From Thermoflavifilum thermophilum (GTDB lineage Bacteria > Bacteroidota > Bacteroidia > Chitinophagales > Chitinophagaceae), in NCBI RefSeq assembly GCF_900116565.1, contig NZ_FPCJ01000001.1:1838540-1902539 (forward strand): a stretch of 64,000 nucleotides of DNA. Reading direction: 5' to 3'. Positions within the stretch are counted from its first letter, which is position 1. Every line of letters begins with the position of its first letter. Made by a program: the position numbers and the translations under genes. Positions 1,247 to 23,557 of the stretch are shown here, piece after piece. Under the pieces are notes generated by a model. It saw only the letters and a program-made list of their open reading frames with translations. It was not told the DNA's origin and did no database searches.

Positions 1247-1324
1247 TCCCTCAAAAGCAACCGATCGAAGCGATATTTACGTTATTCCGTACAGGTGACT
1301 CAGACTGAAAGCATATTTCTTCAC

Positions 1325-4300
1325 ATGCCTGACCATATCCGTATCAGGAAGGTGTTTTTTGCACGCACAAATTCCCTTCTTGGCAGGGGATTGAGATATG
1401 GCTGGGCTTTATTCGCCTGTTTGTTGCTGGCCGGTTTGGCCAATGGTCAATCGTCTTTCGGGGATATCAGCTTTCAGACAAACAATGGGCAATGGCCTGC
1501 CGATGTGCTCTTCCGGGCTGATCTGGGATCAGGCCAGTATGTGGTGCTCAGCCGCCAGGGATTTGGTGTGGTGCTCTACGACACGGCAGATATGAAACAT
1601 TTCTGGTCATTATTTCATGGAGGTGCACCGGAAATTTCTTCTTCCCGCAACCCCGTTCACCGTCCGAGAAGCCGGTTCCCACAAGCAATTCCTTCTGCCG
1701 CTGCAGCATTTCCTGTCACCTTGCATGGCGTGTATTATCAGGTTCATTTCCTCAATAGTCAATCCCCCAGTAGTATACAATTTGATCATCCGAGTACGAC
1801 CTATTACAATTATTTCATTGGCAATGACCCTGCCCGTTGGGCTACCCATGTGGAGGGTTACGGGGGGATCACCTACGAACAGATTTATCCGGGTATTGAT
1901 GTGCGGTTTTATTTTGAAGCCGGCCGCCTGAAATATGACTGGATGCTTCAGCCCGGTGCCCAGATCAGCCAAATCAGCCTCCAGTATCAGGGCATTGAGA
2001 GCATGGAAATCCGCAAGGGTAATCTGTTGATTAAAACGGCTGTGGGAACCATTACGGAGCTGGAGCCTTTTTGCTATCAATATGTGGAAGGACAACGCCG
2101 GCAAATTCCCTGTCGTTATGTGATCAACCGGCAGCAGGTAGGCTTTCAGGTTACCGGTGCCTATGATCCGCATCTGCCCCTCATCATTGATCCGGTGGTC
2201 ATCTTTGCTACATTCACGGGCTCTACGGCCGACAACTGGGGGTTTACGGCTACCTATGATGCACAGGGTAATTTCTACGCAGGAGGCATCGTGTTCGACA
2301 GTGGTTACCCGGTTACACCCGGAGCTTTTCAGCAGACTTTTGGGGGTGGACAAATTGAATCCAATTATTATGGTTATGATATGGCGATTGCCAAATTCGA
2401 TCCGACAGGGAAACGATTGCTGTACGCCACTTATCTGGGTGGCAGTGGCAATGAACAGCCACATAGCCTGATTCTGAATCATCAGGGAAATCTGATTATT
2501 GCCGGAAGAACCAATTCACCCAATTTCCCTCACGACCATGCTTATGGTCCGCTGGGGAATTATGACATTGTGGTAGCTGAATTAAATCCTACGGGCTCGG
2601 TATTGCTCCACAGCACGGTGATTGGTGGAAAAAACGATGATGGGGTGAACATCACCTATGTACGCGAGGCCGGCACCGTTTCGCTCATGCAAAACTATGG
2701 CGATGATGCCCGCAGCGAAGTGGTGGTGGATAACAGCGATAATATTTATCTGGCCAGCTGCAGCCAGTCGCCCGATTTCCCCACTACAGCCGGAGTCTTC
2801 CAGCCCGGGAAGGGTGATCGCTCCCAACCCCATTCCGGCTCGCGAACAGCCTATATCGATGGTACATTGTACACCTTTTCTTATGCTTATTATGACCAGG
2901 ATGCCGTAGTCATCAAGCTGCATCCCGATTGCAGTCTGGCGTGGGCCAGCTTTTTAGGCGGCTCGGGCGATGATGCCGCTTATGTGATCGACCTGGATCC
3001 GGCAGGAAATATTTATGTTGGAGGTGCGACCTCAAGCGGCAATCTGCCCTCGGGTAAACTGCCCGGCGTGCTTCAGCCTTCATACCAGGGCAATATGGCC
3101 GATGGATTTGTAGCCGAGATCAGCAACGATGGTACCCAGCTGCTGCGCCGCACCTATCTGGGTACGAATGGCATCGACGAAGTATATGGATTAGCTTTTG
3201 ATCAACAGGGATATCCCTATGTGTGCGGCACTACGACGGGCAGCTGGCCGGTGGTCAATGCTCCCTATCGCCAGCCTGGTGGCAAGCAGTTCATTGCCAA
3301 GTTGAAGCCCGACCTCAGCGGATATGTCTATTCCACCACTTTTGGCAAGGGTGGCACCGAACCAGATATTTCTCCGGTAGCTTTTCTGGTGGACCGCTGT
3401 GAAAATGTGTATGTATCCGGCTGGGGTGGGGATATCAACAGCCAGTATGGGGGCTTTGTGCACGGGGGCCAGTCCACATCTGGACTGTATATCACTTCCG
3501 ACGCCCTGCAGAAAACCACCGACGGGTCTGATTTTTATTTCTTTGTGTTGAAACGAAACGCTGCCAGTGTGCTTTATGCCAGCTATTGGGGTGGATCCGG
3601 TATCTGGGAACATGTGGATGGAGGTACCAGTCGGTTCGATCCTATGGGTGTGATCTATGAGGCAATTTGTGGAGGCTGTGGCGGGTATTCCAATGAACCG
3701 ATTACACCCGGGGTATGGTCGCCCGTGAACCGAAGCGACAATTGCAATGAGGTAGCGTTGAAGATAGCGTTTAATTTGAGTGGGGTACATGTTGGGTTGA
3801 AGGCTTTGAATGGGGACACGAGCGGGTGTGTGCCGTTTACGGTGGAGATCAGCGACACGGCTGGGTTAGCCAAGCAATACGTGTGGGATTTTGGGGATGG
3901 GACGCCGCCGGTGAAGACGAGTGCGTCCAGCCAGCAGCATACGTATAATGCGGTAGGACAGTACCGGGTGATGGTGGTGGGGATAGATTCGGCGAGTTGC
4001 AACATAGCCGACACGGGGTACATGTGGGTGAAGGTAGGGGATAATCCGGCCGAGATTGGTTTTCGGGTGGAGAAGGTAGGGCCGTGCACGAGCTATCGGT
4101 ATCGGTTCATCAACACGAGTGTAGCGTTGGGAGGGGGTGGTTTTACGGGCAGTTCGTTTGTATGGGATTTTGGGGATGGGACGCCGCCGGTGGAGGCAGG
4201 GTTGGACACGGTGGAGCATGGGTATGGGGGTCCGGGGGTATACCGGGTGATGTTGCGGTTGGTGGACACGAGTTTTTGCAATGCGCCGGCCGATAGTGTG

Positions 4301-5080
4301 GTGGTGTTGCGGGTAGCCTCGAATGTGAAGGCAGGATTTGAGGTGGACAGTGTAGGGTGCATACCTTATGAGGCGGAGTTTGAGAACACGAGTTTGGGGG
4401 GTAGTAGTTTTGAGTGGGATTTTGGGGATGGGACGACGAGCACGGAGGTGAATCCGGTACATGAGTACAGCAAGGCTGGGGTGTATGTGGTGCGATTGGT
4501 AGCCAACGACAGTACGACGTGCAACCGGACGGATACGGTGGTAGATACGATACGGGTGTATGGGAGGCCGGTGTCGTCGTTTGTGGTGAGTCCGGTGCCG
4601 CCGCAGGAGAATGTGGCGGAGGTGTTCACCAACCAGAGCCAGGGAGCGGTGAGGTGGTGGTGGGAGTTTGGGGATGGGACGGGAGACACGACGTATAATG
4701 CGAGTCATATATATCCGAAGACGGGGGTGTATGAGGCATGTTTACGGGTAGCCAATGAGTGGGGATGTGAGGACACGAGTTGCCAGGCTGTGGAGGCGTT
4801 GATCAATCCGTTGTTTGATGTGCCGAGTGCGTTTTCGCCGAATGGGGATGGGGTGAATGATGTGTTTCGGGTGCGGGGATTTGGGATAGAGCGGTTTGAG
4901 ATGGAGATATACAATCGGTGGGGGCAGAAGGTGTATGAGAGCCGGGATGTGAATCAGGGATGGGATGGGACATACAGGGGCAAGCCACAGCCGATGGATG
5001 CCTATGCCTACGTGATCCATATCCAGTTCACCGATGGAACCCGTGTCACCCGCACCGGAAACGTAACACTTTTACGGTAA
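1325..5080 (+). CDS. Secreted SBBP beta-propeller/PKD protein with type B T9SS sorting domain
   Basis: A 1251-residue exported protein. A hydrophobic signal segment around residues 28-42 ends in ANGQ. It is followed by a DUF7948-like N-terminal domain (NNGQWPADVLFRADLG), then about five SBBP-type propeller repeats (YLGGSGNEQ, FLGGSGDDA, YLGTNGIDE, YWGGSG) spanning roughly residues 290-800. Four PKD-like repeats follow (VWDFGDGTPP twice, EWDFGDGTTS, WWEFGDGTGD). The C-terminal CHU_C/gliding-motility domain (AFSPNGDGVNDVF, IYNRWGQKVYES, GWDGTYRGK, GNVTLLR) targets it to the type IX secretion system for surface attachment. The next gene is a PorP/SprF protein 18 bases away, the usual partner of this sorting class. 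A GTG at 1295 is an alternative start. Bases about 3740-4965 use strikingly G-ending codons unlike the rest of the gene. The ligand or polymer recognised is unknown. Confidence 0.88.
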   Translation: MPDHIRIRKVFFARTNSLLGRGLRYGWALFACLLLAGLANGQSSFGDISFQTNNGQWPADVLFRADLGSGQYVVLSRQGFGVVLYDTADMKHFWSLFHGGAPEISSSRNPVHRPRSRFPQAIPSAAAAFPVTLHGVYYQVHFLNSQSPSSIQFDHPSTTYYNYFIGNDPARWATHVEGYGGITYEQIYPGIDVRFYFEAGRLKYDWMLQPGAQISQISLQYQGIESMEIRKGNLLIKTAVGTITELEPFCYQYVEGQRRQIPCRYVINRQQVGFQVTGAYDPHLPLIIDPVVIFATFTGSTADNWGFTATYDAQGNFYAGGIVFDSGYPVTPGAFQQTFGGGQIESNYYGYDMAIAKFDPTGKRLLYATYLGGSGNEQPHSLILNHQGNLIIAGRTNSPNFPHDHAYGPLGNYDIVVAELNPTGSVLLHSTVIGGKNDDGVNITYVREAGTVSLMQNYGDDARSEVVVDNSDNIYLASCSQSPDFPTTAGVFQPGKGDRSQPHSGSRTAYIDGTLYTFSYAYYDQDAVVIKLHPDCSLAWASFLGGSGDDAAYVIDLDPAGNIYVGGATSSGNLPSGKLPGVLQPSYQGNMADGFVAEISNDGTQLLRRTYLGTNGIDEVYGLAFDQQGYPYVCGTTTGSWPVVNAPYRQPGGKQFIAKLKPDLSGYVYSTTFGKGGTEPDISPVAFLVDRCENVYVSGWGGDINSQYGGFVHGGQSTSGLYITSDALQKTTDGSDFYFFVLKRNAASVLYASYWGGSGIWEHVDGGTSRFDPMGVIYEAICGGCGGYSNEPITPGVWSPVNRSDNCNEVALKIAFNLSGVHVGLKALNGDTSGCVPFTVEISDTAGLAKQYVWDFGDGTPPVKTSASSQQHTYNAVGQYRVMVVGIDSASCNIADTGYMWVKVGDNPAEIGFRVEKVGPCTSYRYRFINTSVALGGGGFTGSSFVWDFGDGTPPVEAGLDTVEHGYGGPGVYRVMLRLVDTSFCNAPADSVVVLRVASNVKAGFEVDSVGCIPYEAEFENTSLGGSSFEWDFGDGTTSTEVNPVHEYSKAGVYVVRLVANDSTTCNRTDTVVDTIRVYGRPVSSFVVSPVPPQENVAEVFTNQSQGAVRWWWEFGDGTGDTTYNASHIYPKTGVYEACLRVANEWGCEDTSCQAVEALINPLFDVPSAFSPNGDGVNDVFRVRGFGIERFEMEIYNRWGQKVYESRDVNQGWDGTYRGKPQPMDAYAYVIHIQFTDGTRVTRTGNVTLLR

Positions 5081-5098: not shown

Positions 5099-6178
5099 AT
5101 GAATACGCGCATCAAATGCCGTTATCTGTTCCGGCTCAGCCGGGGTGGCCTTTGCAGAAGTTTTGTGCAGAGCCTGTGGGGGATCGTACTGGTGCTTTTC
5201 ACTGAACACATACATGCCCAGGATTTGCATTTCTCCCAGTACTTTTCAGCTCCGCTGCTTACCAATCCGGCCAATACGGGCTTTATTCCCGATGCGAATT
5301 ATCGGTTGGGTGTGGATTATCGCGATCAGTGGACTACCATTCCGGTGCCCTACCGTACCATGTCGGCCTTTGGTGATGCCCAGCTGTTGCGCAACCGGCT
5401 TACCTATGGATGGCTTGGCGTGGGTGGCGTGGTGTTGCAGGATGTAGCCGGGAGTGGCGATCTGACTTCCACGAAAGTATATGCTTCTCTGGCCTATCAT
5501 CAGCTATTGGGCTTGGGCAGCTTGTTGTCGGCAGGATTCAATGTGGGATATGCGCGCAAGAGCATTAACCTCAGCAAGCTTACTTTTGACGACCAGTGGA
5601 ACGGAAAGTTTTTCGATGCATCCTTGCCAACCAATGAATACAGTGCCATCACCCAAACCAGCGTCAGCTATATGGATTTGCAGGCAGGTTTAAACTATGC
5701 GTATTTTCCGAATGATCATATCTATCTTAACTTAGGCTTTTCTGCACAGCATTTAAATACTCCGAGAGAAACTTTTTACAACGGTGATAATCGTATTCCC
5801 CGGCGATATATTGGTTTTGTCAATGCCAGCATTCAGGTTTCCAGCCAGATAATCATCAATCCCAACGGATATTATTCGTTGCAATCCGGAGCCCATGAAC
5901 TGGTAGCCGGTGGCTATCTGCAGGTGAATCTTTCAGGCGATGGTGCGCAGCAGTTATTGGGGGGGATATATTATCGTTTTGGCGATGCACTAATTCCAAT
6001 GGTGGGTTATCAGCTGAACAACCTCAGGTTAATGTTTAGTTATGACGCAACCGTTTCTTCCCTGGGTTCGAATATTCAGCATAATGGAGCTTATGAAGTA
6101 TCTTTGATTTATCAAGGATTGTATCAAAATGGAACTTATCGCCGTGAAGAAAAAAAGTTTCGCTGCCCCAGTTTTTAG
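5099..6178 (+). CDS. PorP/SprF family type IX secretion outer-membrane protein
   Basis: A 359-residue predicted outer-membrane beta-barrel of the PorP/SprF family, which assists export or anchoring of CHU_C-type cargo. After a signal peptide ending in HAQ comes the family hallmark DLHFSQYFSAPLLTNPANTGF. Then YRDQWTTIPVPYRT and many alternating aromatic/polar strands follow, and it ends with an FRCPSF tail matching the KCPRF tail of the second family member at 20812-21846. It lies 18 bases after the CHU_C-domain gene and probably shares its transcript. Its last 50 bases overlap the start of the following gene. SprF of Flavobacterium johnsoniae is needed for SprB surface display. By analogy this protein probably serves the upstream 1251-residue cargo, which is inference from adjacency. 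Confidence 0.9.
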   Translation: MNTRIKCRYLFRLSRGGLCRSFVQSLWGIVLVLFTEHIHAQDLHFSQYFSAPLLTNPANTGFIPDANYRLGVDYRDQWTTIPVPYRTMSAFGDAQLLRNRLTYGWLGVGGVVLQDVAGSGDLTSTKVYASLAYHQLLGLGSLLSAGFNVGYARKSINLSKLTFDDQWNGKFFDASLPTNEYSAITQTSVSYMDLQAGLNYAYFPNDHIYLNLGFSAQHLNTPRETFYNGDNRIPRRYIGFVNASIQVSSQIIINPNGYYSLQSGAHELVAGGYLQVNLSGDGAQQLLGGIYYRFGDALIPMVGYQLNNLRLMFSYDATVSSLGSNIQHNGAYEVSLIYQGLYQNGTYRREEKKFRCPSF

Positions 6179-15872: not shown

Positions 15873-18800
15873 ATGAGAAACCGACGGATATCCTGCAGCG
15901 TGTTACCCGTACTGTCTGCCTACATGTGGATAGCAGTTTTTGTTTTGGATATCCGGCATTCCTCAGCTCAGATCAACGCTGCTTTTCAGGCTGATACCAC
16001 GCAGGGTTGCGCGCCCGTCATCGTGCATTTCATCGATCAATCAACCGGCAATATTGTTTCTCGTTACTGGGATTTTGGCAATGGCAATCATATCCGCTAC
16101 GACAGCGCGGTGAATCCCAGCGCCAGTTATATCAATCCCGGATATTACAACGTTTCGCTTACCGTTACCGATGCAGCTGGCCACAGTTCCACCCAGACGT
16201 TGCAGGTGGCTGTGTTTGGCTCGCCCCGCGTGCTGTTTTCGCCCGATTCGGCTACGGGTTGTTATCCGGTGACGGTGCATTTTACCGACCGGTCGTTGCC
16301 TGGCTCGGGGAGCATCACCAGCCGGCTCTGGGATTTTGGGGATGGACACACGTCAACCGATGCCAACCCGATATATACCTATTCCAGTCCGGGGAAATAC
16401 AGCGTGCAGTTGATGGTAACGAATTCTTATGGATGTACGGCAGTATCAGATACGCCAGGTGTGGTGGTGGTTCCCCGGCCGGTGGTGGCGGGGTTTTCGG
16501 CAGACACTGTGTTGTCGTGCACGGCTCCTCTCACGGTGCATTTTACCAACACCAGCTCCGGATCAGGCCTTTTGCAATATCATTGGGATTTTGGGGATGG
16601 TGCAGTGTCTACCGAAGCCCAACCCGTGCATACCTACACACAAAGCGGAAAATTTACCGTGAGTCTCATAGCGAGCGACAGCATGGGCTGTGCCGATACT
16701 TTGGTCAGGCCGCAGTGGATACAGGTGGGCGAGGTACCACCCGTGGTGCTGCAGATACCGGAAACGATATGCGCCCAGCAAACGGCCTTGTTTTCCAATC
16801 AAAGCCAACCCACGCCCCGGCAAAGCCAGTGGTTGTTCAGCGATGGAAGCACCTACACCGGATTGCAGGTAAGCAAGTCGTTTTTTTCACCCGGCACTTA
16901 TTTCGTTCGGGTCATCAACACCTATGCCAGTGGCTGTTCCGATACCTTATCGCATTCTTTTGAGGTAGCCCCTCAGCCTATGGCCGATTTTTCGGCTTCA
17001 CCGCAATATGGCTGTGCGGTTCCTTTTTCCGTACAGTTTACCAACACAAGCAAAGGAGCAGTAAGCTATCGGTGGGATTTTGGTGATGGCACTACCGATA
17101 CCACTGCCTCGCCTACGCATGTGTACAAGGCTTATGGCCGTTACACGGTGAAACTGGTTGCAACCAACGCGGCCGGATGTAGCGATTCGGTTGTGAAACC
17201 AGGCTATGTGCAGGTGCAGGCCCCCACGGCTCGGTTGTATGCCAGCGTGGATCATGGCTGTGTACCGCTTCCGGTTGATTTTTATGCGAGCATACAAACT
17301 CTCGACAGCGTGGTGCTTGCAGTCTGGGATTTTGGCGATGGCACTACCGATACGGGATTTTCCGCAAGTCATATCTACACAGCAGAGGGCATTTACACAG
17401 TAAAATTCACCATCACCACAAGCCAGGGTTGCACGCAAACTTTTCAATATCCTACTGCGATTCGGGCAGGATCGCCTCCGGTCGTGAATTTCTCCGCTAA
17501 TCCCACCGAAGCCTGTGCGGGAACGACCATTCATTTTACTGATCTATCTGACAAAGGCGAACAATGGCTCTGGTTGTTTGGTGATGGGGGAACCTCAACG
17601 CTGCAAAACCCTGCCCATGTGTATGGCGACACGGGCTATTTCAACGTGAGTCTCATTGTGACTCATCTGGGCTGTACCGATACGCTCACCCGACCGCGAT
17701 ACATCCATATTCGCCCGCCCATCGCCGCTTTTGCTATTCGGAGAACTTGCAGCGCTCCTTACACGATTCAGTTTCTGGATCGTTCCATAGGAGCCATCCA
17801 TTATCAGTGGGATTTTGGCGATACGGCCTCAGGTACAAAAAACTACGATACAGTTCCCAATCCCATTCATGTGTATTCCACCACAGGCACATTCACCGCT
17901 ACCCTCACGGTGAGTAACGATACCTGCAGCTACACCACGAGTCAGACATTTCAGATCATAGATGAACATCCCCAACTTTCCGTGAGCGATACGCTGTTGT
18001 GTCGCAACAGCCCGGTTACCCTGCAGGCTATCAATGTTCATCCCTCTCTGATCAAGTCATACCAATGGATTTACCAGGGGCCGGTATCCGGCAGCCAGAC
18101 CACCACCGTACCGCAGATACAGTTTAATTTCAACCAGCCGGGGATATACTCGTTTACCCTGATTACAACCGATTTAAACAATTGCCAGGATACGGTCCGG
18201 AGAGACAGTGTGTTGCAGGTCATTGGGCCAACGGCCAGTTTTTCGGTGGGCACGCAGGGCTGTGCGCAGATAGCTTTGCCTTTCCAGGATCTCTCAAAAC
18301 CCAATGGGAGCGGGCTGGCATCCTGGATCTGGGACTTTGGTGACGGCGTGAAAGACACCCTGCTGGCAAGCGACAGTGTGCGAAACGGCAATATCCAACA
18401 TGTCTATCAACGATCCGGGACCTATGCCATTACCTTGATCGTGACTGACAGCAATGGTTGCTCGCAACAAATCACGGGGCCGGTGGGAGGATTGCATATC
18501 ACGCAGGTCAATGCTGGCTTTTATTCGCCCGATACCTTCTCCTGCCCGGGCAAACCCATACAGTTTGTCAACCAATCAACAGGCAGTCCTACCCGGGTGA
18601 GATGGACGTTCGGAGACGGACAAACATCTGCCCAGCTTAATCCTACGCATATCTACGACACCGACGGGGTGTATGATATAGGCTTATTCGTGGCCAATGC
18701 ATCTGGCTGCACGGATAGCCTGCTTCGCCCGCAGTATATTCATATTGCCACGCCGCATGCAGCTTTCTCCATCAGCAATCTGCCCGATAGTGGCGGAGTG

Positions 18801-20783
18801 AAATGTCCGCCTTTTGTGGCACAGTTTCAGAATCATTCTGTAAACTATCGGGCGGTGAAATGGGATTTTGGCGATGGGGCTACCTCTTCATTGACCAATC
18901 CTACGCATATTTACAACTATCCGGGAAATTACACCATAACTCTGGTAGTTACCAGTGCCGGAGGGTGTACCGACACGGCCAGGATGAGCTTTGTGATTCA
19001 CGGCCCCGTGGCGCAGATCATGCATCAGCCCATGGCGGGTTGTGGATTGCCGGTAACCATTCAGTTTAAAGCCACGGGCAAAAATGCGATTTCTTACCAG
19101 TGGGATTTTGGCGATGGGGTGGTGTCGCTTCCCAGTACGGATACCATTGTATCGCATACCTACACCCAGCGGGGCAATTATAAACCCGTGCTGATCGTAC
19201 GCGATTCCTCCGGTTGCAGTGTTTCCTTCCGGAACGACGATTCGCTGATCATTGACCAGCTTGCTGCCGGATTCACCATGCAGCCGCATGTTGTTTGCGA
19301 TTCCGGTGTGGTGGAGGTAGCCGATACTTCGCATAGTTTTGCTGCCGACACCTTAGGCCTGCCCAATCAGGTGTTCTGGGATTTTGGCGATCCCACTTCC
19401 AACCGGGATACTTCCACGCAGCGGCAAGCCAGCTATCATTACCGTGCGCCGGGCGATTATGTGATCCGGCTCACTGTAACGACCTATTTTGGTTGTACCC
19501 AGACCGTTACCGACACCGTGCATGTGGTGGGCACTACACACGTGGGCATCTTAGGGCCCGATAGCGCCTGCTTTGGCATGCCCCTGCGATTTTCATCGCA
19601 GGTATTAAACAGCTATAAACCCATTGTATCGTGGTATTGGGATTTCGGAAATGGTATGGTCGATACCACAAGCGCTCCACCGTCACAATCCTATCCTTCT
19701 GCTGGCCGTTTTCAGGTAAAACTCATAGCCACCAATACCGATGGTTGCCGGGATACAGCCAGGCATGCGGTCAGCATTTTCCCCTTGCCGGTGCCTGCGG
19801 CAGGAGCGCTGGATTCGGTGATTTGTCTGGGTAAAAGTACCCGTTTACATGCACAAGATGGTGTGCAATACCACTGGTGGCCGGGTATTGGGTTAAATGA
19901 TACTACCATTGCCGATCCGGTGGCTTCGCCTACCAATGATATGCTTTATCATGTGCAGGTTACCAACAGTCATGGTTGTACACAGGTTGATTCTGTGCCG
20001 GTGAGGGTTTCGCAGCCCTTTGCCATGCGGGTAGGAGTGGATACCACCATTTGTGCGGGCGAAAGCGTTCAGCTTTTTGCAAGGGGAGGAGCAGCCTCTT
20101 ATCGGTGGACGCCACCCACTTTTCTGGATCATGCAGAATCAGCTAACCCGGTCTGTCGGCCCGATTCTTCGATTACCTATCGTATTGTAGGATATGGACA
20201 GGATGCCTGTTTTACCGATACGGGCTATGTGCACATACATGTGATACCCCTGCCCCAGTTGCATGCCACACCCGATCAAACCCTGGTGGTGGGCTCGCAA
20301 GTACAACTGCAAGCGAATGGCAGTCCTGATGTGGTCAGCTACCAATGGTCGCCGCCCGACTGGCTGAGCTGTACTGACTGTGCTAACCCCATTGCCACGC
20401 CGCGTGGGAATATAACCTATCGTGTAGTGGCCGCCAATGCATTGGGTTGCATTGCCATTGCCACGACTCGCATCAAACTTATCTGTTCATCGGGTGTGGT
20501 TTTCATTCCCAATACCTTCAGCCCGAATGGCGACCAGCAAAATGATGTTTTCTACCCGCGCGGCAAGGGTATTCAGATCGTGCGTTATTTCCGCATCTTC
20601 AACCGCTGGGGGCAGCTGATGTTTGAACGCGACAATTTTCCGATTGATGATAAAAGTTTTGGGTGGGATGGAACGTTTAAAGGAGCGGCCTTGCCACCGG
20701 ATGTGTATGTATATGTGACCGAAATGGTATGCGACAATGGCGAGGTATTTCAACTGAAAGGCAATGTAACCCTGTTAAGATAA
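15873..20783 (+). CDS. Giant PKD-array surface protein with type B T9SS sorting domain
   Basis: A 1636-residue exported adhesin-like protein. The signal segment (residues about 12-30) ends in SSAQ. About 14-15 PKD-type repeats run from residue 35 to about 1280, each recognised by a WDFGDG-like core (YWDFGNG, LWDFGDGHTS, HWDFGDGAVS, RWDFGDGTTD, KWDFGDGATS, and degenerate WLFSDG and WTFGDG). Three Ig/SprB-like segments of the type YQWSPPDWLSCTDCANPIATP follow. The C-terminal CHU_C domain has TFSPNGDQQNDVFYPRG, IFNRWGQLMFER, FGWDGTFKGA and GNVTLLR. The paired cysteines of many repeats (about 40 residues apart) suggest one disulfide per repeat. The partner PorP/SprF gene starts 28 bases downstream. 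Codon usage is uniform and normal, in contrast with the PKD block of the first cassette. Confidence 0.9.
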   Translation: MRNRRISCSVLPVLSAYMWIAVFVLDIRHSSAQINAAFQADTTQGCAPVIVHFIDQSTGNIVSRYWDFGNGNHIRYDSAVNPSASYINPGYYNVSLTVTDAAGHSSTQTLQVAVFGSPRVLFSPDSATGCYPVTVHFTDRSLPGSGSITSRLWDFGDGHTSTDANPIYTYSSPGKYSVQLMVTNSYGCTAVSDTPGVVVVPRPVVAGFSADTVLSCTAPLTVHFTNTSSGSGLLQYHWDFGDGAVSTEAQPVHTYTQSGKFTVSLIASDSMGCADTLVRPQWIQVGEVPPVVLQIPETICAQQTALFSNQSQPTPRQSQWLFSDGSTYTGLQVSKSFFSPGTYFVRVINTYASGCSDTLSHSFEVAPQPMADFSASPQYGCAVPFSVQFTNTSKGAVSYRWDFGDGTTDTTASPTHVYKAYGRYTVKLVATNAAGCSDSVVKPGYVQVQAPTARLYASVDHGCVPLPVDFYASIQTLDSVVLAVWDFGDGTTDTGFSASHIYTAEGIYTVKFTITTSQGCTQTFQYPTAIRAGSPPVVNFSANPTEACAGTTIHFTDLSDKGEQWLWLFGDGGTSTLQNPAHVYGDTGYFNVSLIVTHLGCTDTLTRPRYIHIRPPIAAFAIRRTCSAPYTIQFLDRSIGAIHYQWDFGDTASGTKNYDTVPNPIHVYSTTGTFTATLTVSNDTCSYTTSQTFQIIDEHPQLSVSDTLLCRNSPVTLQAINVHPSLIKSYQWIYQGPVSGSQTTTVPQIQFNFNQPGIYSFTLITTDLNNCQDTVRRDSVLQVIGPTASFSVGTQGCAQIALPFQDLSKPNGSGLASWIWDFGDGVKDTLLASDSVRNGNIQHVYQRSGTYAITLIVTDSNGCSQQITGPVGGLHITQVNAGFYSPDTFSCPGKPIQFVNQSTGSPTRVRWTFGDGQTSAQLNPTHIYDTDGVYDIGLFVANASGCTDSLLRPQYIHIATPHAAFSISNLPDSGGVKCPPFVAQFQNHSVNYRAVKWDFGDGATSSLTNPTHIYNYPGNYTITLVVTSAGGCTDTARMSFVIHGPVAQIMHQPMAGCGLPVTIQFKATGKNAISYQWDFGDGVVSLPSTDTIVSHTYTQRGNYKPVLIVRDSSGCSVSFRNDDSLIIDQLAAGFTMQPHVVCDSGVVEVADTSHSFAADTLGLPNQVFWDFGDPTSNRDTSTQRQASYHYRAPGDYVIRLTVTTYFGCTQTVTDTVHVVGTTHVGILGPDSACFGMPLRFSSQVLNSYKPIVSWYWDFGNGMVDTTSAPPSQSYPSAGRFQVKLIATNTDGCRDTARHAVSIFPLPVPAAGALDSVICLGKSTRLHAQDGVQYHWWPGIGLNDTTIADPVASPTNDMLYHVQVTNSHGCTQVDSVPVRVSQPFAMRVGVDTTICAGESVQLFARGGAASYRWTPPTFLDHAESANPVCRPDSSITYRIVGYGQDACFTDTGYVHIHVIPLPQLHATPDQTLVVGSQVQLQANGSPDVVSYQWSPPDWLSCTDCANPIATPRGNITYRVVAANALGCIAIATTRIKLICSSGVVFIPNTFSPNGDQQNDVFYPRGKGIQIVRYFRIFNRWGQLMFERDNFPIDDKSFGWDGTFKGAALPPDVYVYVTEMVCDNGEVFQLKGNVTLLR

Positions 20784-20811: not shown

Positions 20812-21846
20812 ATGAAACAATTTTACACTGCGGCAGCGGGCCTGCTTTGTATTTGCGGGCTTGGTACATTGGCCGGATATGCACAGGATATTCATCTGTC
20901 GCAGTTTTATGAAGCACCCTTGCTTCAGAATCCGGCACTGGCAGGCATTTTTACGGGCGATTGCCGGGTGCAGGCCGTATATCGCAACCAGTGGGGCAGC
21001 GTAACAGTTCCCTATCAGACCGGCGCCCTCAGCGGTGAAGCCCGCTTCCCGGTCAAAAATTCTTCGGATTTTATCACCATTGCCTTGCAGTTTACCTACG
21101 ATGAAGCAGGCACATCCAACCTTCATGCTTCTGAAATCATGCCCTGTGTGAATTATCACAAGTCATTGAGTGAAGATCATAACCTGTATCTTTCCCTGGG
21201 CGTGATGGGCGGATGGGTTGACCGACAACTGGATCCCAGTAAACTTACCTTCGATAATCAGTACAACCCCAACTATGGTTTTGATCCCAACAACCCGAGC
21301 GGTGAAAATATGTCGGTTTATGGTTATCATTACCTGGATGGAGCTGTGGGTATGAGCCTTAGCACATCGCTCGGCGAAAACACACATATGTTCATTGGAT
21401 CTTCTTATTATCACCTGAACAAGCCCAAAGTTTCCTTTTATAACAACAGCGAAGTTTTGCTGCAGCCCAAATGGCAATACCACGCCGGCATCTCATCTAC
21501 TGTTGGCGACCAGTACTATCTGATCGGGCAGTTTAACCAGCTTGTGCAGGGCACCTATTCCGAAACCATGATAGGAGGTCTGGCAGGGGTGGCACTTTTG
21601 AAACAAGGGCTGCAAAGCAATATGGCATTGTATCTTGGCGGCTTTCTGAGATGGAAGGATGCATTGATCCCGGTGGTAAAACTCGACATGGGTAATTATA
21701 ACCTGGGACTGAGTTATGATATCAATATATCAAAACTGGCCACAGCCAGTCATACAGTAGGTGGATTTGAAATTTCACTTTCTTGGAAAGGATTTTTCAC
21801 CAACCAGAACAGTTCCTTGAACAAAGTAAAATGCCCCAGGTTCTGA
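20812..21846 (+). CDS. PorP/SprF family type IX secretion outer-membrane protein
   Basis: A 344-residue predicted beta-barrel, paralogue of the protein at 5099-6178. The signal peptide ends GYAQ. The hallmark DIHLSQFYEAPLLQNPALAGIF follows, then YRNQWGSVTVPYQTGA, and it ends in VKCPRF. Internal glycine/aromatic strands such as NLYLSLGVMGGWVDRQLDPSKLTF match the sister protein (YARKSINLSKLTF). It lies 28 bases after the PKD-array gene with no promoter-like element between, so both are probably on one transcript. It is inferred to serve export or anchoring of that cargo, as SprF does for SprB. Confidence 0.92.
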   Translation: MKQFYTAAAGLLCICGLGTLAGYAQDIHLSQFYEAPLLQNPALAGIFTGDCRVQAVYRNQWGSVTVPYQTGALSGEARFPVKNSSDFITIALQFTYDEAGTSNLHASEIMPCVNYHKSLSEDHNLYLSLGVMGGWVDRQLDPSKLTFDNQYNPNYGFDPNNPSGENMSVYGYHYLDGAVGMSLSTSLGENTHMFIGSSYYHLNKPKVSFYNNSEVLLQPKWQYHAGISSTVGDQYYLIGQFNQLVQGTYSETMIGGLAGVALLKQGLQSNMALYLGGFLRWKDALIPVVKLDMGNYNLGLSYDINISKLATASHTVGGFEISLSWKGFFTNQNSSLNKVKCPRF

Positions 21847-21947
21847 AGATTTCATCGGAGTAAACTTTTCCGGTAAATGGTAAGTCAAACCGTTATCCGA
21901 AAGCACATAAAAACAAGGATTTTAAGCAAATTTTATTACAAGTAATG

Positions 21948-21978
21948 TTGATTTTTTCTCTGAAAAAATGTAAGTTTG
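21948..21978 (+). promoter_or_regulatory. Bacteroidota-type promoter, TTG-N20-TAAGTTTG
   Basis: TTG at 21948-21950, a 20-base spacer, then TAAGTTTG at 21971-21978. The ATG of the next gene begins only five bases after the -7 element, which predicts a transcript starting at or next to the initiation codon. Confidence 0.6.
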
Positions 21979-21982
21979 ACCT

Positions 21983-22312
21983 ATGATGAAAAAATTTACA
22001 CTGATTTTTTTACTTATCCTTTGTAAAACCACCTTCAGCTTTGCTCAGGCCTACGGAGATGGGAACGGGAAAATCCTGAAACTTTATCCCAATCCGGCCA
22101 CTACCCAGATCAATCTTGAACTTCAATCCCATGGTGACCAGGCCTATGAAGTGGTCATCTATAATTTTCTGGGAAAAAAGTTTGATGATTTCAAACTCAC
22201 TGGCCGCCAGACACTGAGCCTTTCCCGCTATTACAGCGGTATTTATATTTACCAGCTGCTCGACATGCAGGGCAATGTGGTGGAGACTGGCAAGTTTAAC
22301 GTGATCAAATAG
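21983..22312 (+). CDS. Mini-protein: signal peptide plus type A T9SS sorting domain
   Basis: A 109-residue secreted protein. A signal peptide (MMKK then a hydrophobic run ending FSFAQ, residues 1-22) is followed after only about 9 residues by a complete type A C-terminal sorting domain. Its landmarks are KLYPNPATTQINLEL, a YEVVIYNFLGK core, SLSRYYSGIYIYQL and VVETGKFNVIK. In characterised T9SS cargo this domain is cut off by PorU during export, so almost no passenger would remain. It may be a CTD-only competitor, regulator or structural peptide, or a relic; none is proven. The first codon pair is ATG-ATG, directly under a promoter-like element. It stands after the second PorP/SprF gene, with its own promoter, and is convergent with the methyltransferase gene. 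Confidence 0.8.
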   Translation: MMKKFTLIFLLILCKTTFSFAQAYGDGNGKILKLYPNPATTQINLELQSHGDQAYEVVIYNFLGKKFDDFKLTGRQTLSLSRYYSGIYIYQLLDMQGNVVETGKFNVIK

Positions 22313-22330
22313 CAAAGGGTTTACAAAGGC

Positions 22331-23503
22331 TTATTGTACCTGAACAATGAGAAATTTCAGGTAGGCCGTGCTTTCAATGGTCCACACAATCGGATGATCG
22401 GGTGGTTGGGTGTGAAACAGCACTTGCCTGATCTGTCGTTTGGCATCGGCAGCAGCCTGCCTGATGATTTGCAGAAACAGATCGGCGGGTATCAGATTGG
22501 TGCATGAAGAAGTAATGAGAAATCCACCGGGACGAATCATTTTCAATGCCCGTAGATTAATTTCCTTGTATCCGGTAATGGCGCTTTGAATTTGTTGCCG
22601 GCTTTTGGCAAAGGCAGGAGGATCGAGCATTACCACGTCGTAACTGCGTTTTTCGGCAGCCCATTGTTTCAATACATCAAAAGCATTGGCTTCCACAAAG
22701 CTGCAGGAGGTGGCAACACCATTCAGTGCAGCATTCTGCCGGGCCAACTGCAGGGCATCGGCTGAGGCATCAATGGCTGTGACATGTCTGGCTCCAAAGG
22801 CTGCCGCGTGGCAGGTGAAACTGCCGGTATAACAAAAGGCTTCCAGTATTTCTGCATCTTTCACAAAAGGAGCTATGGCCTGGCGGTTCATGTGTTGATC
22901 CAGGAAATATCCTGTTTTTTGACCATTGGCCACATCTACCCAAAACGATAATCCGTTTTCCCGGATCTGAAAAGTGGTGGGGAAGGGTTGGGATAAGAAT
23001 CCTTTCACTTGAGGCAGGCCCTCCAGCTCACGTACAGGGGCATCGTTGCGCTCGTAAATACCAGCAGGATGGAGGATATCCTGAATAGCAGCTACGATAG
23101 CGGATTTCCAGCGATCCATCCCCAGTGCCAATGTTTGGATGACTACGATATCACCAAACTTATCCACAATCAATCCAGGCAATTGATCGGCTTCAGCAAA
23201 TACCAGCCGGCAGTTGTCTGTATACCCGATGCGTTTTCGGTAATCCCAGCATTGCCGGATGCGCTGAAAGAAAAAATCTTCATCCACGGTTTCCGGTTTT
23301 AGGGTGAGCAGCCTCACCCGGATCTGGGATTGGGGATTCCAGTATCCACGACCGCAGAATTTTTGTGCAGAACTGAAAACATCTACGATGGCACCCGGTC
23401 CCTCCGACACCTGTTCACTGGCTATTTCGCCCGCAAAAATCCAGGGATGGCCTGCCAGGAGCCTTTTTTCTGCCTGTTTTTTCAGAATAATTTTTCCTGC
23501 CAT
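22331..23503 (-). CDS. Class I SAM rRNA methyltransferase, RlmI-like
   Basis: A 390-residue protein of the RlmI/RlmK family that methylates cytosine C5 in 23S rRNA. The N-terminal PUA domain shows HPWIFAGEI. The central EEHEE-like segment has AEADQLPGLIVDKFGD. The Rossmann domain carries ILEAFCYTGSFTCHAAAFGA (SAM motif I), VTAIDAS, and VVMLDPPAFAKSR (the DPP motif). TSSCTNL near the C-terminus holds a Cys in the position common in this family. The start is set at ATG 23503: a longer in-frame ATG at 23530 would lie upstream of the predicted transcription start. It is divergent from grpE. Whether the target base is that of E. coli RlmI cannot be told. Confidence 0.9.
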   Translation of the reverse strand: MAGKIILKKQAEKRLLAGHPWIFAGEIASEQVSEGPGAIVDVFSSAQKFCGRGYWNPQSQIRVRLLTLKPETVDEDFFFQRIRQCWDYRKRIGYTDNCRLVFAEADQLPGLIVDKFGDIVVIQTLALGMDRWKSAIVAAIQDILHPAGIYERNDAPVRELEGLPQVKGFLSQPFPTTFQIRENGLSFWVDVANGQKTGYFLDQHMNRQAIAPFVKDAEILEAFCYTGSFTCHAAAFGARHVTAIDASADALQLARQNAALNGVATSCSFVEANAFDVLKQWAAEKRSYDVVMLDPPAFAKSRQQIQSAITGYKEINLRALKMIRPGGFLITSSCTNLIPADLFLQIIRQAAADAKRQIRQVLFHTQPPDHPIVWTIESTAYLKFLIVQVQ

Positions 23504-23527
23504 GATTGCTGATGCTTTCCAGACATT

Positions 23528-23557
23528 CAAATATCTGAGATTTCATGCGATATGCAA
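23528..23557 (-). promoter_or_regulatory. Promoter of the RlmI-like gene, TTG-N19-GATATTTG
   Basis: Read on the minus strand: TTG (23557-23555), 19 bases, then GATATTTG (23535-23528), one mismatch to TAnnTTTG. The predicted transcription start near 23524 supports ATG 23503 as the true start. Confidence 0.55.

Follow-up and report, generated by a model that had tools for sequence, protein, structure and literature searches.

A conserved family of stand-alone type A sorting domains in Chitinophagaceae and its possible role in type IX secretion

Type A sorting domains of the type IX secretion system (T9SS) are mostly viewed as disposable tags, cleaved off once used. Removal at the cell surface, which the preliminary description of the gene studied here took as its premise, is not general, as PorU, PorZ and part of PorA are reported to keep their domains (PMC7712824). 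For PorU and PorZ (uncleaved, group III), the retained CTD is described as holding the protein to PorV or PorQ (PMC10202324). PorA (PGN_0123) of P. gingivalis is a small CTD protein with an effect on the T9SS itself; it is reported to need PorV in order to be found with Sov, of which it is the most abundant partner after PorV (PMC8754138), to act upstream of PorXY-SigP, and to be found on the cell surface in sov and porV mutants (both PMC7712824). Fjoh_0547 of Flavobacterium johnsoniae (112 aa) is a reported CTD protein which, according to a secondary citation, is secreted in sprA and porV mutants (PMC7712824, citing Lauber 2018). In type A domains, the surface that faces the translocon is described as poorly conserved save for one Lys near the C terminus (Lauber et al. 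2024, PMC10994853). Our literature searches found nothing on "CTD-only" T9SS proteins and nothing joining type IX secretion, Chitinophagaceae and sorting domain.

The gene considered here lies in a window of Thermoflavifilum thermophilum DNA (the whole stretch analysed, 64,000 nt), in which the order is a PKD/type B protein, a PorP/SprF protein, the mini-protein, a convergent rlmI, grpE and dnaJ (the last read by eye). The features are as follows.

15873..20783, forward strand: PKD-repeat protein with a type B sorting domain (TIGR04131, PF18911), a neighbour outside the finding.
20812..21846, forward strand: PorP/SprF-family outer-membrane protein, the upstream neighbour (TIGR03519, 132 bits).
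21971..21978, forward strand: promoter-like -7 box, TAAGTTTG, ending 4 nt before the first ATG.
21983..22312, forward strand: mini-protein coding sequence, stop included, 109 aa, supported by orthologues.
21983..22045, forward strand: predicted Sec signal peptide, residues 1-21, read from the sequence (model helix 3-18), with likely cleavage before Gln22.
22046..22081, forward strand: linker, residues 22-33, the sole possible "passenger" (residues 21-27 with pLDDT under 50; pairwise identity 0.28).
22082..22309, forward strand: complete type A T9SS sorting domain, residues 34-109 (family models, model strands, conservation).
22331..23530, reverse strand: rlmI-like 23S rRNA methyltransferase, the convergent neighbour (family models, relatives' loci).

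The mini-protein frame starts with ATG, has a second ATG at 21986 and ends with TAG; an opposite-strand frame of 101 aa overlaps it at 22010-22315. By reading, the signal peptide is MMKKFTLIFLLILCKTTFSFA, ending in FSFA before the Gln. The domain matches TIGR04183 (43.4 bits, cut-off 23, residues 34-98) and PF18962 (43.4 bits, cut-off 27, residues 34-100), in agreement with the preliminary description, which saw a signal peptide and a type A sorting domain with almost no passenger between them. Its short passenger stands, with the count of about 9 residues corrected: counted from the likely cleavage site, LYPNPA is preceded by about 12 residues (22-33), the last of which, K30 and K33, lead into the first strand. 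From this layout, the mature mini-protein would be one sorting domain plus about a dozen residues. The passenger domain of ordinary type A cargo is absent (the 12-residue linker takes its place), as is the propeller or gingipain-like catalytic part of PorZ and PorU; what is left is the CTD alone, in 109 aa, the shortest frame among the eight sorting-domain genes of its own genome over the cut-off. Rfam gave no match within 21600-22600, and the RNA fold of the first 101 nt of the mini-gene was not unusual (z -1.2).

A T9SS in this genome is deduced from its sorting domains, PorP/SprF and a divergent PorU-like protein with 116 bits against a cut-off of 420 bits (L142:546-5612, a 1689-aa frame, with PorU-model matches at C2:1971195-1976027). 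Just upstream of the PorU-like gene lies a PorV/PorQ-like gene (C2:1969941-1971011, 71 bits to the PorQ model). The PKD-repeat protein at 15873..20783 is likely a client of the adjacent PorP/SprF protein, and this pair (15873-20783 with 20812-21846) was confirmed by family models. A second pair of a PKD-like and a PorP/SprF-type gene in the window (1295-5080 with 5099-6178) was read by eye only.

An AF2 model of the mini-protein, built from 79 sequences (mean pLDDT 83), has a helix at 3-18, a low-confidence stretch at 21-27 (pLDDT below 50) and seven strands between residues 32 and 107, so that the domain is predicted to be a complete seven-stranded Ig-like sandwich. The top four VIA-align matches, over residues 28-109, were the sorting domains of mirolase, NucA, PorU and PorZ with Z 10.9, 10.6, 10.3 and 10.0. 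Thus, the mini-protein resembles ordinary type A cargo (RemZ, NucA, mirolase) in domain family and fold, and differs from it in carrying no passenger; the fold is also like that of the uncleaved PorU and PorZ domains, which belong to much larger proteins. In Foldseek, the mirolase sorting domain ranked first and that of NucA, bound to the T9SS translocon, third, with Vibrio GbpA proteins in places 2 and 4. Sequence searches of the PDB returned 3 and 7 chains; the best was a 75-residue chain of a T9SS sorting domain, and the longer chains align to the mini-protein near their own C-terminal ends. Other Ig-like folds came next in VIA-align, at Z 9.6 and below and within Z 1 of the sorting domains; the fold alone is therefore not specific. 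This bears on the main rival to the reading that we prefer below, namely a free extracellular or cell-surface Ig-like mini-protein, its fold re-used for other binding, whose exit from the cell may or may not use the T9SS, in line with what is reported for Fjoh_0547. The near-equal fit of unrelated Ig-like folds and the secretion reported for Fjoh_0547 speak for it, whereas all 79 scanned members (alignment A2) still match the type A model TIGR04183 at E <= 0.001. We regard this possibility as rather unlikely, and as the strongest of the alternatives.

Orthologues of the same size, which the preliminary description had proposed to look for across Chitinophagaceae, are widespread. A profile search over 294 sampled family genomes, with 15 first-look candidates scored per genome, gave matches at E <= 1e-14 in 230; by reading of the list, 215 of these stand at E <= 1.7e-25 and 15 between 2e-19 and 9e-15. 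A close orthologue is thus present in at least 215 of the 294 genomes, with one match in all but five, which have two or three. The figure of 215 is a lower bound, because the gene behind the weak match in G158 sits at the conserved place and is a diverged orthologue; it also reflects the scoring of 15 candidates per genome. The gene was found in all five sampled genomes of Thermoflavifilum, with 89-99% protein identity in the other four, and named Chitinophaga species carry it. Frames among the best matches listed, down to E 2.3e-38, measure 108-186 aa, and in the 78 of 80 named loci with an inferable start the protein has 109-129 aa (median 114). Three loci with frames of 245-310 aa (L031-L033) were dropped, as were rows lacking a usable start (L030 from alignment A1, L078 and L079 from alignment A2). 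In samples of 198 order and 296 class genomes, close orthologues were seen only in Chitinophagaceae; the best matches outside the family (E 3e-21 to 1e-20) are no worse than that of G158 and mostly fall in frames of at least 233 aa. Outside the family, three short frames with a sorting domain (134-148 aa) do occur, in G324, G336 and G465 (L238:1355-1789, L239:4732-5133 and L237:4928-5371), where the conserved neighbours are absent, and stand-alone sorting domains may have had more than one origin.

The mini-gene is one of a conserved family whose products are stand-alone sorting domains, and it is under purifying selection, with dN/dS of 0.020-0.063 over the whole gene in ten pairs within the genus. 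Sorting domains commonly terminate long proteins, from which the gene might have been left over as a truncated remnant of a longer cargo gene. The same short layout recurs in 78 named loci, at a partly conserved place, and close orthologues run across the family under the constraint just given; a remnant was therefore rejected as highly improbable, and the preliminary description, which had weighed truncation against its own proposal, is not weakened on this side.

Close orthologues are missing from 79 of the 294 family genomes, and the mini-protein is accordingly not needed by every T9SS. Diverged copies hidden in such genomes were considered and rejected: among 24 genomes without a close orthologue, 21 gave an rlmI match, and the 22 rlmI loci contained no short sorting-domain ORF within about 1.5 kb, nor any grpE or peroxiredoxin match within the same distance. 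Three of these 22 loci hold frames of 441-485 aa.

The box TAAGTTTG at 21971..21978 is one that we take to be a Bacteroidota-type -7 box. In 45 of 78 orthologues, a TAnnTTTR box has its end 3-8 nt upstream of the inferred start, whereas 300 shuffles gave 2.0 such cases on average and 7 at most; the same placement was seen in 0 of 60 dnaJ genes and in 11 of 42 rlmI genes. Starts inferred with a scoring script (78 orthologues in L043-L122) were 40 ATG, 33 TTG and 5 GTG, and 14 TTG and 2 GTG starts were counted among the 42 rlmI genes. Since rlmI shows the box and non-ATG starts too, neither trait is unique to the mini-gene. In most of the TTG-start orthologues codon 7 is ATA. Synonymous change per site is 0.26-0.41 in the first 33 codons compared with 0.67-0.96 in the rest (five pairs other than L001-L005), and in the same five pairs a clear synonymous dip at the gene start was found once for rlmI and twice for PorP. 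The position of the box suggests that the mini-gene has a promoter of its own and that its mRNA has little or no leader. In F. psychrophilum, 5.5% of mapped mRNAs are reported to be leaderless (PMC9723704), and in an older survey leaderless genes are reported to have been found in no more than 1 of the 37 Bacteroidetes/Chlorobi genomes (PMC3160421).

Selection does not act evenly along the protein. Mean pairwise identity among 79 sequences is 0.27 in the signal peptide, 0.28 in the linker and 0.55 in the sorting domain. Within the linker, K30 (3.1 bits) and K33 (2.8 bits) stand out from residues 23-29 (0.7-1.7 bits); by a scripted cleavage rule, 78 orthologues have 11 to 29 residues between the cleavage site and YPNP, and 68 of 79 rows carry Gln in the column where the mature protein likely begins. 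Because the linker is as variable across the family as the signal peptide, the idea of a peptide released on purpose, raised in the preliminary description, is disfavoured. Ordinary cargo was represented by one protein, the M43 protease (PF05572) of the same genome, with best matches taken as orthologues and the own genome paired with G001, G003, G004, G002, G010, G011 and G008. In this order, identities in the M43 cargo were 0.92, 0.86, 0.79, 0.54, 0.31, 0.26 and 0.29 for the sorting domain and 0.95, 0.87, 0.88, 0.80, 0.45, 0.40 and 0.39 for the passenger. The corresponding values in the mini-protein were 1.00, 0.96, 0.95, 0.92, 0.58, 0.46 and 0.47 for the domain and 0.97, 0.94, 0.97, 0.82, 0.33, 0.15 and 0.35 for signal peptide plus linker. 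Within the genus the latter are about as conserved as the domain and the contrast is small. In comparisons outside the genus, conservation in the mini-protein centres on the domain, yet in the M43 cargo the domain is less conserved than the passenger. This reversed direction of constraint relative to ordinary type A cargo, in the one cargo compared, is our main new result.

The pattern bears directly on the reading of the mini-protein as ordinary cargo, in which the PorU sortase would remove the domain and leave the short linker peptide, perhaps tied to LPS, as the product. The mini-protein does have every visible feature of a type A substrate, and the divergent PorU-like protein could supply the sortase. 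However, the part to be discarded is the conserved one and the part to be kept varies in both sequence (28% identity) and length, opposite to the M43 control, which makes this reading improbable. Across the family selection keeps the domain, so that the sorting domain itself is very probably the working product. Its last strand is strongly conserved (E101, S102, G103, K104, F105), which would suit a free Ig-like protein as well, whereas the retention of a near-invariant basic residue at position 104 (K in 76 and R in 3 of the 79 rows) argues against it. K104 would be the counterpart of RemZ Lys1110, with which we equate it by its place near the C terminus. As the mini-protein domain is conserved beyond what the translocon-facing need for one Lys would call for, it probably has a partner of its own; the conservation itself says nothing on what the domain binds.

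High conservation of a sorting domain is not unique to the mini-protein, since the type B domain of the PKD neighbour is conserved equally or better (94% identity against 89% for the mini-protein in G002, and 55% against 43% in L021). A dedicated PorP/SprF partner is assumed for that type B domain, and the comparison therefore also fits a dedicated partner for the mini-protein. A further possibility is that the mini-protein is a partner of the PKD adhesin and the PorP/SprF protein encoded next to it, and is secreted or held with them. Type B proteins are reported to pair with adjacent PorP/SprF proteins (PMC12618676), and 41 of 80 named loci have a PorP/SprF gene upstream in the same orientation. 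It was not found upstream in the others, the count being 40 of 74 where at least 1.5 kb of upstream sequence is available; in about half of the loci a peroxiredoxin gene lies upstream (present in 44 of 80, upstream in 42 of them, at a median of 90 nt; the AhpC-TSA identity rests on one scanned member). As PorP is upstream in only 41 of 80 loci and peroxiredoxin is often the direct neighbour, a product of the PKD-PorP cluster loses weight, and with the promoter-like box of the mini-gene and the use of PorV by type A domains also against it, we consider such a partnership quite improbable. The convergent rlmI is adjacent in 41 of 80 loci, grpE occurs in 58 and dnaJ in 56. The constant neighbours are housekeeping genes, and the place of the mini-gene therefore looks inherited rather than functional.

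The distribution of the mini-gene was also compared with that of PorQ and PorZ in 97 family genomes. The model cut-offs were passed in 60 (PorQ) and 62 (PorZ) of them. With the borderline PorQ of G062 (209 bits) and that of G064 (split at contig ends) counted as present and the 28.6-bit PorZ match of G088 as absent, PorQ and PorZ come and go together: both in 61 genomes, neither in 35 and PorQ only in 1. The mini-protein occurs with PorQ in 40 genomes and without it in 33, PorQ alone in 22 and neither in 2 (Fisher p 0.001), four genomes with weak mini-protein matches only (G005, G072, G112, G117) being counted as lacking the gene; that is, the mini-protein is present in 33 of the 35 genomes without PorQ, and PorQ in 22 of the 24 without the mini-protein. 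The link is not significant once relatedness is taken into account: an ahcY tree covering 92 genomes (G035, G059, G063, G064 and G084 left out of the 97, ahcY being absent or fragmentary) yields independent pairs with a median p of 0.6 one way and 1 the other. Parsimony on this tree places 13 of 14 PorQ losses in lineages with the mini-gene and the remaining one on a branch gaining it. Ten of the 24 PorQ changes are gains, which indicates that the one-gene tree is too noisy. The own genome has no PorZ match, and its matches to the PorQ model are all far below the cut-off. The mini-protein as a stand-in for PorZ/PorQ is kept merely as a lead. Extended further, the sorting domain alone might be a built-in T9SS regulator in Chitinophagaceae, a passenger-free ligand filling the PorV-SprA translocon, setting or reporting its free capacity and making the PorQ-PorZ part of the attachment complex dispensable; this is a doubtful proposal.

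The best explanation, to which we give a probability of about 40%, is that the mini-protein is a PorV/SprA ligand working like PorA. The protein would be exported by Sec, lose its signal peptide before Gln22 and fold into the seven-stranded Ig-like sorting domain. It would then enter the T9SS and bind the PorV shuttle, either inside the SprA pore or on the cell surface, and stay there with its domain uncut or be released only slowly. In this position, it would occupy, gate or report on the shuttle, a part that PorA may play in P. gingivalis as a member of the PorA-PorV-Sov complex. From the gene, its layout, the fold prediction and the conservation pattern, all established here, we infer secretion, PorV binding, lack of cleavage and a regulatory effect by analogy. 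The analogy has its bounds: PorA has 246 aa and a FimH-like N-terminal domain, for which residues 22-33 of the mini-protein leave no room, and no homology is claimed beyond the sorting domain. The reported presence of PorA on the cell surface in sov and porV mutants counts against a PorA-like ligand, and Fjoh_0547, likened to the mini-protein by description and of the same size class, differs from such a ligand in its reported secretion in sprA and porV mutants. The "regulator of PorU/PorV" or "decoy" of the preliminary description may come nearest to the PorV/SprA ligand favoured here.

The mini-gene is small and nearly always single-copy, and its domain is kept better than that of the one cargo compared. 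A gene that consists of the tag alone and is kept by most sampled members of the family offers a clean natural test of whether the tag works after secretion, as a shuttle ligand, a gate or a signal.
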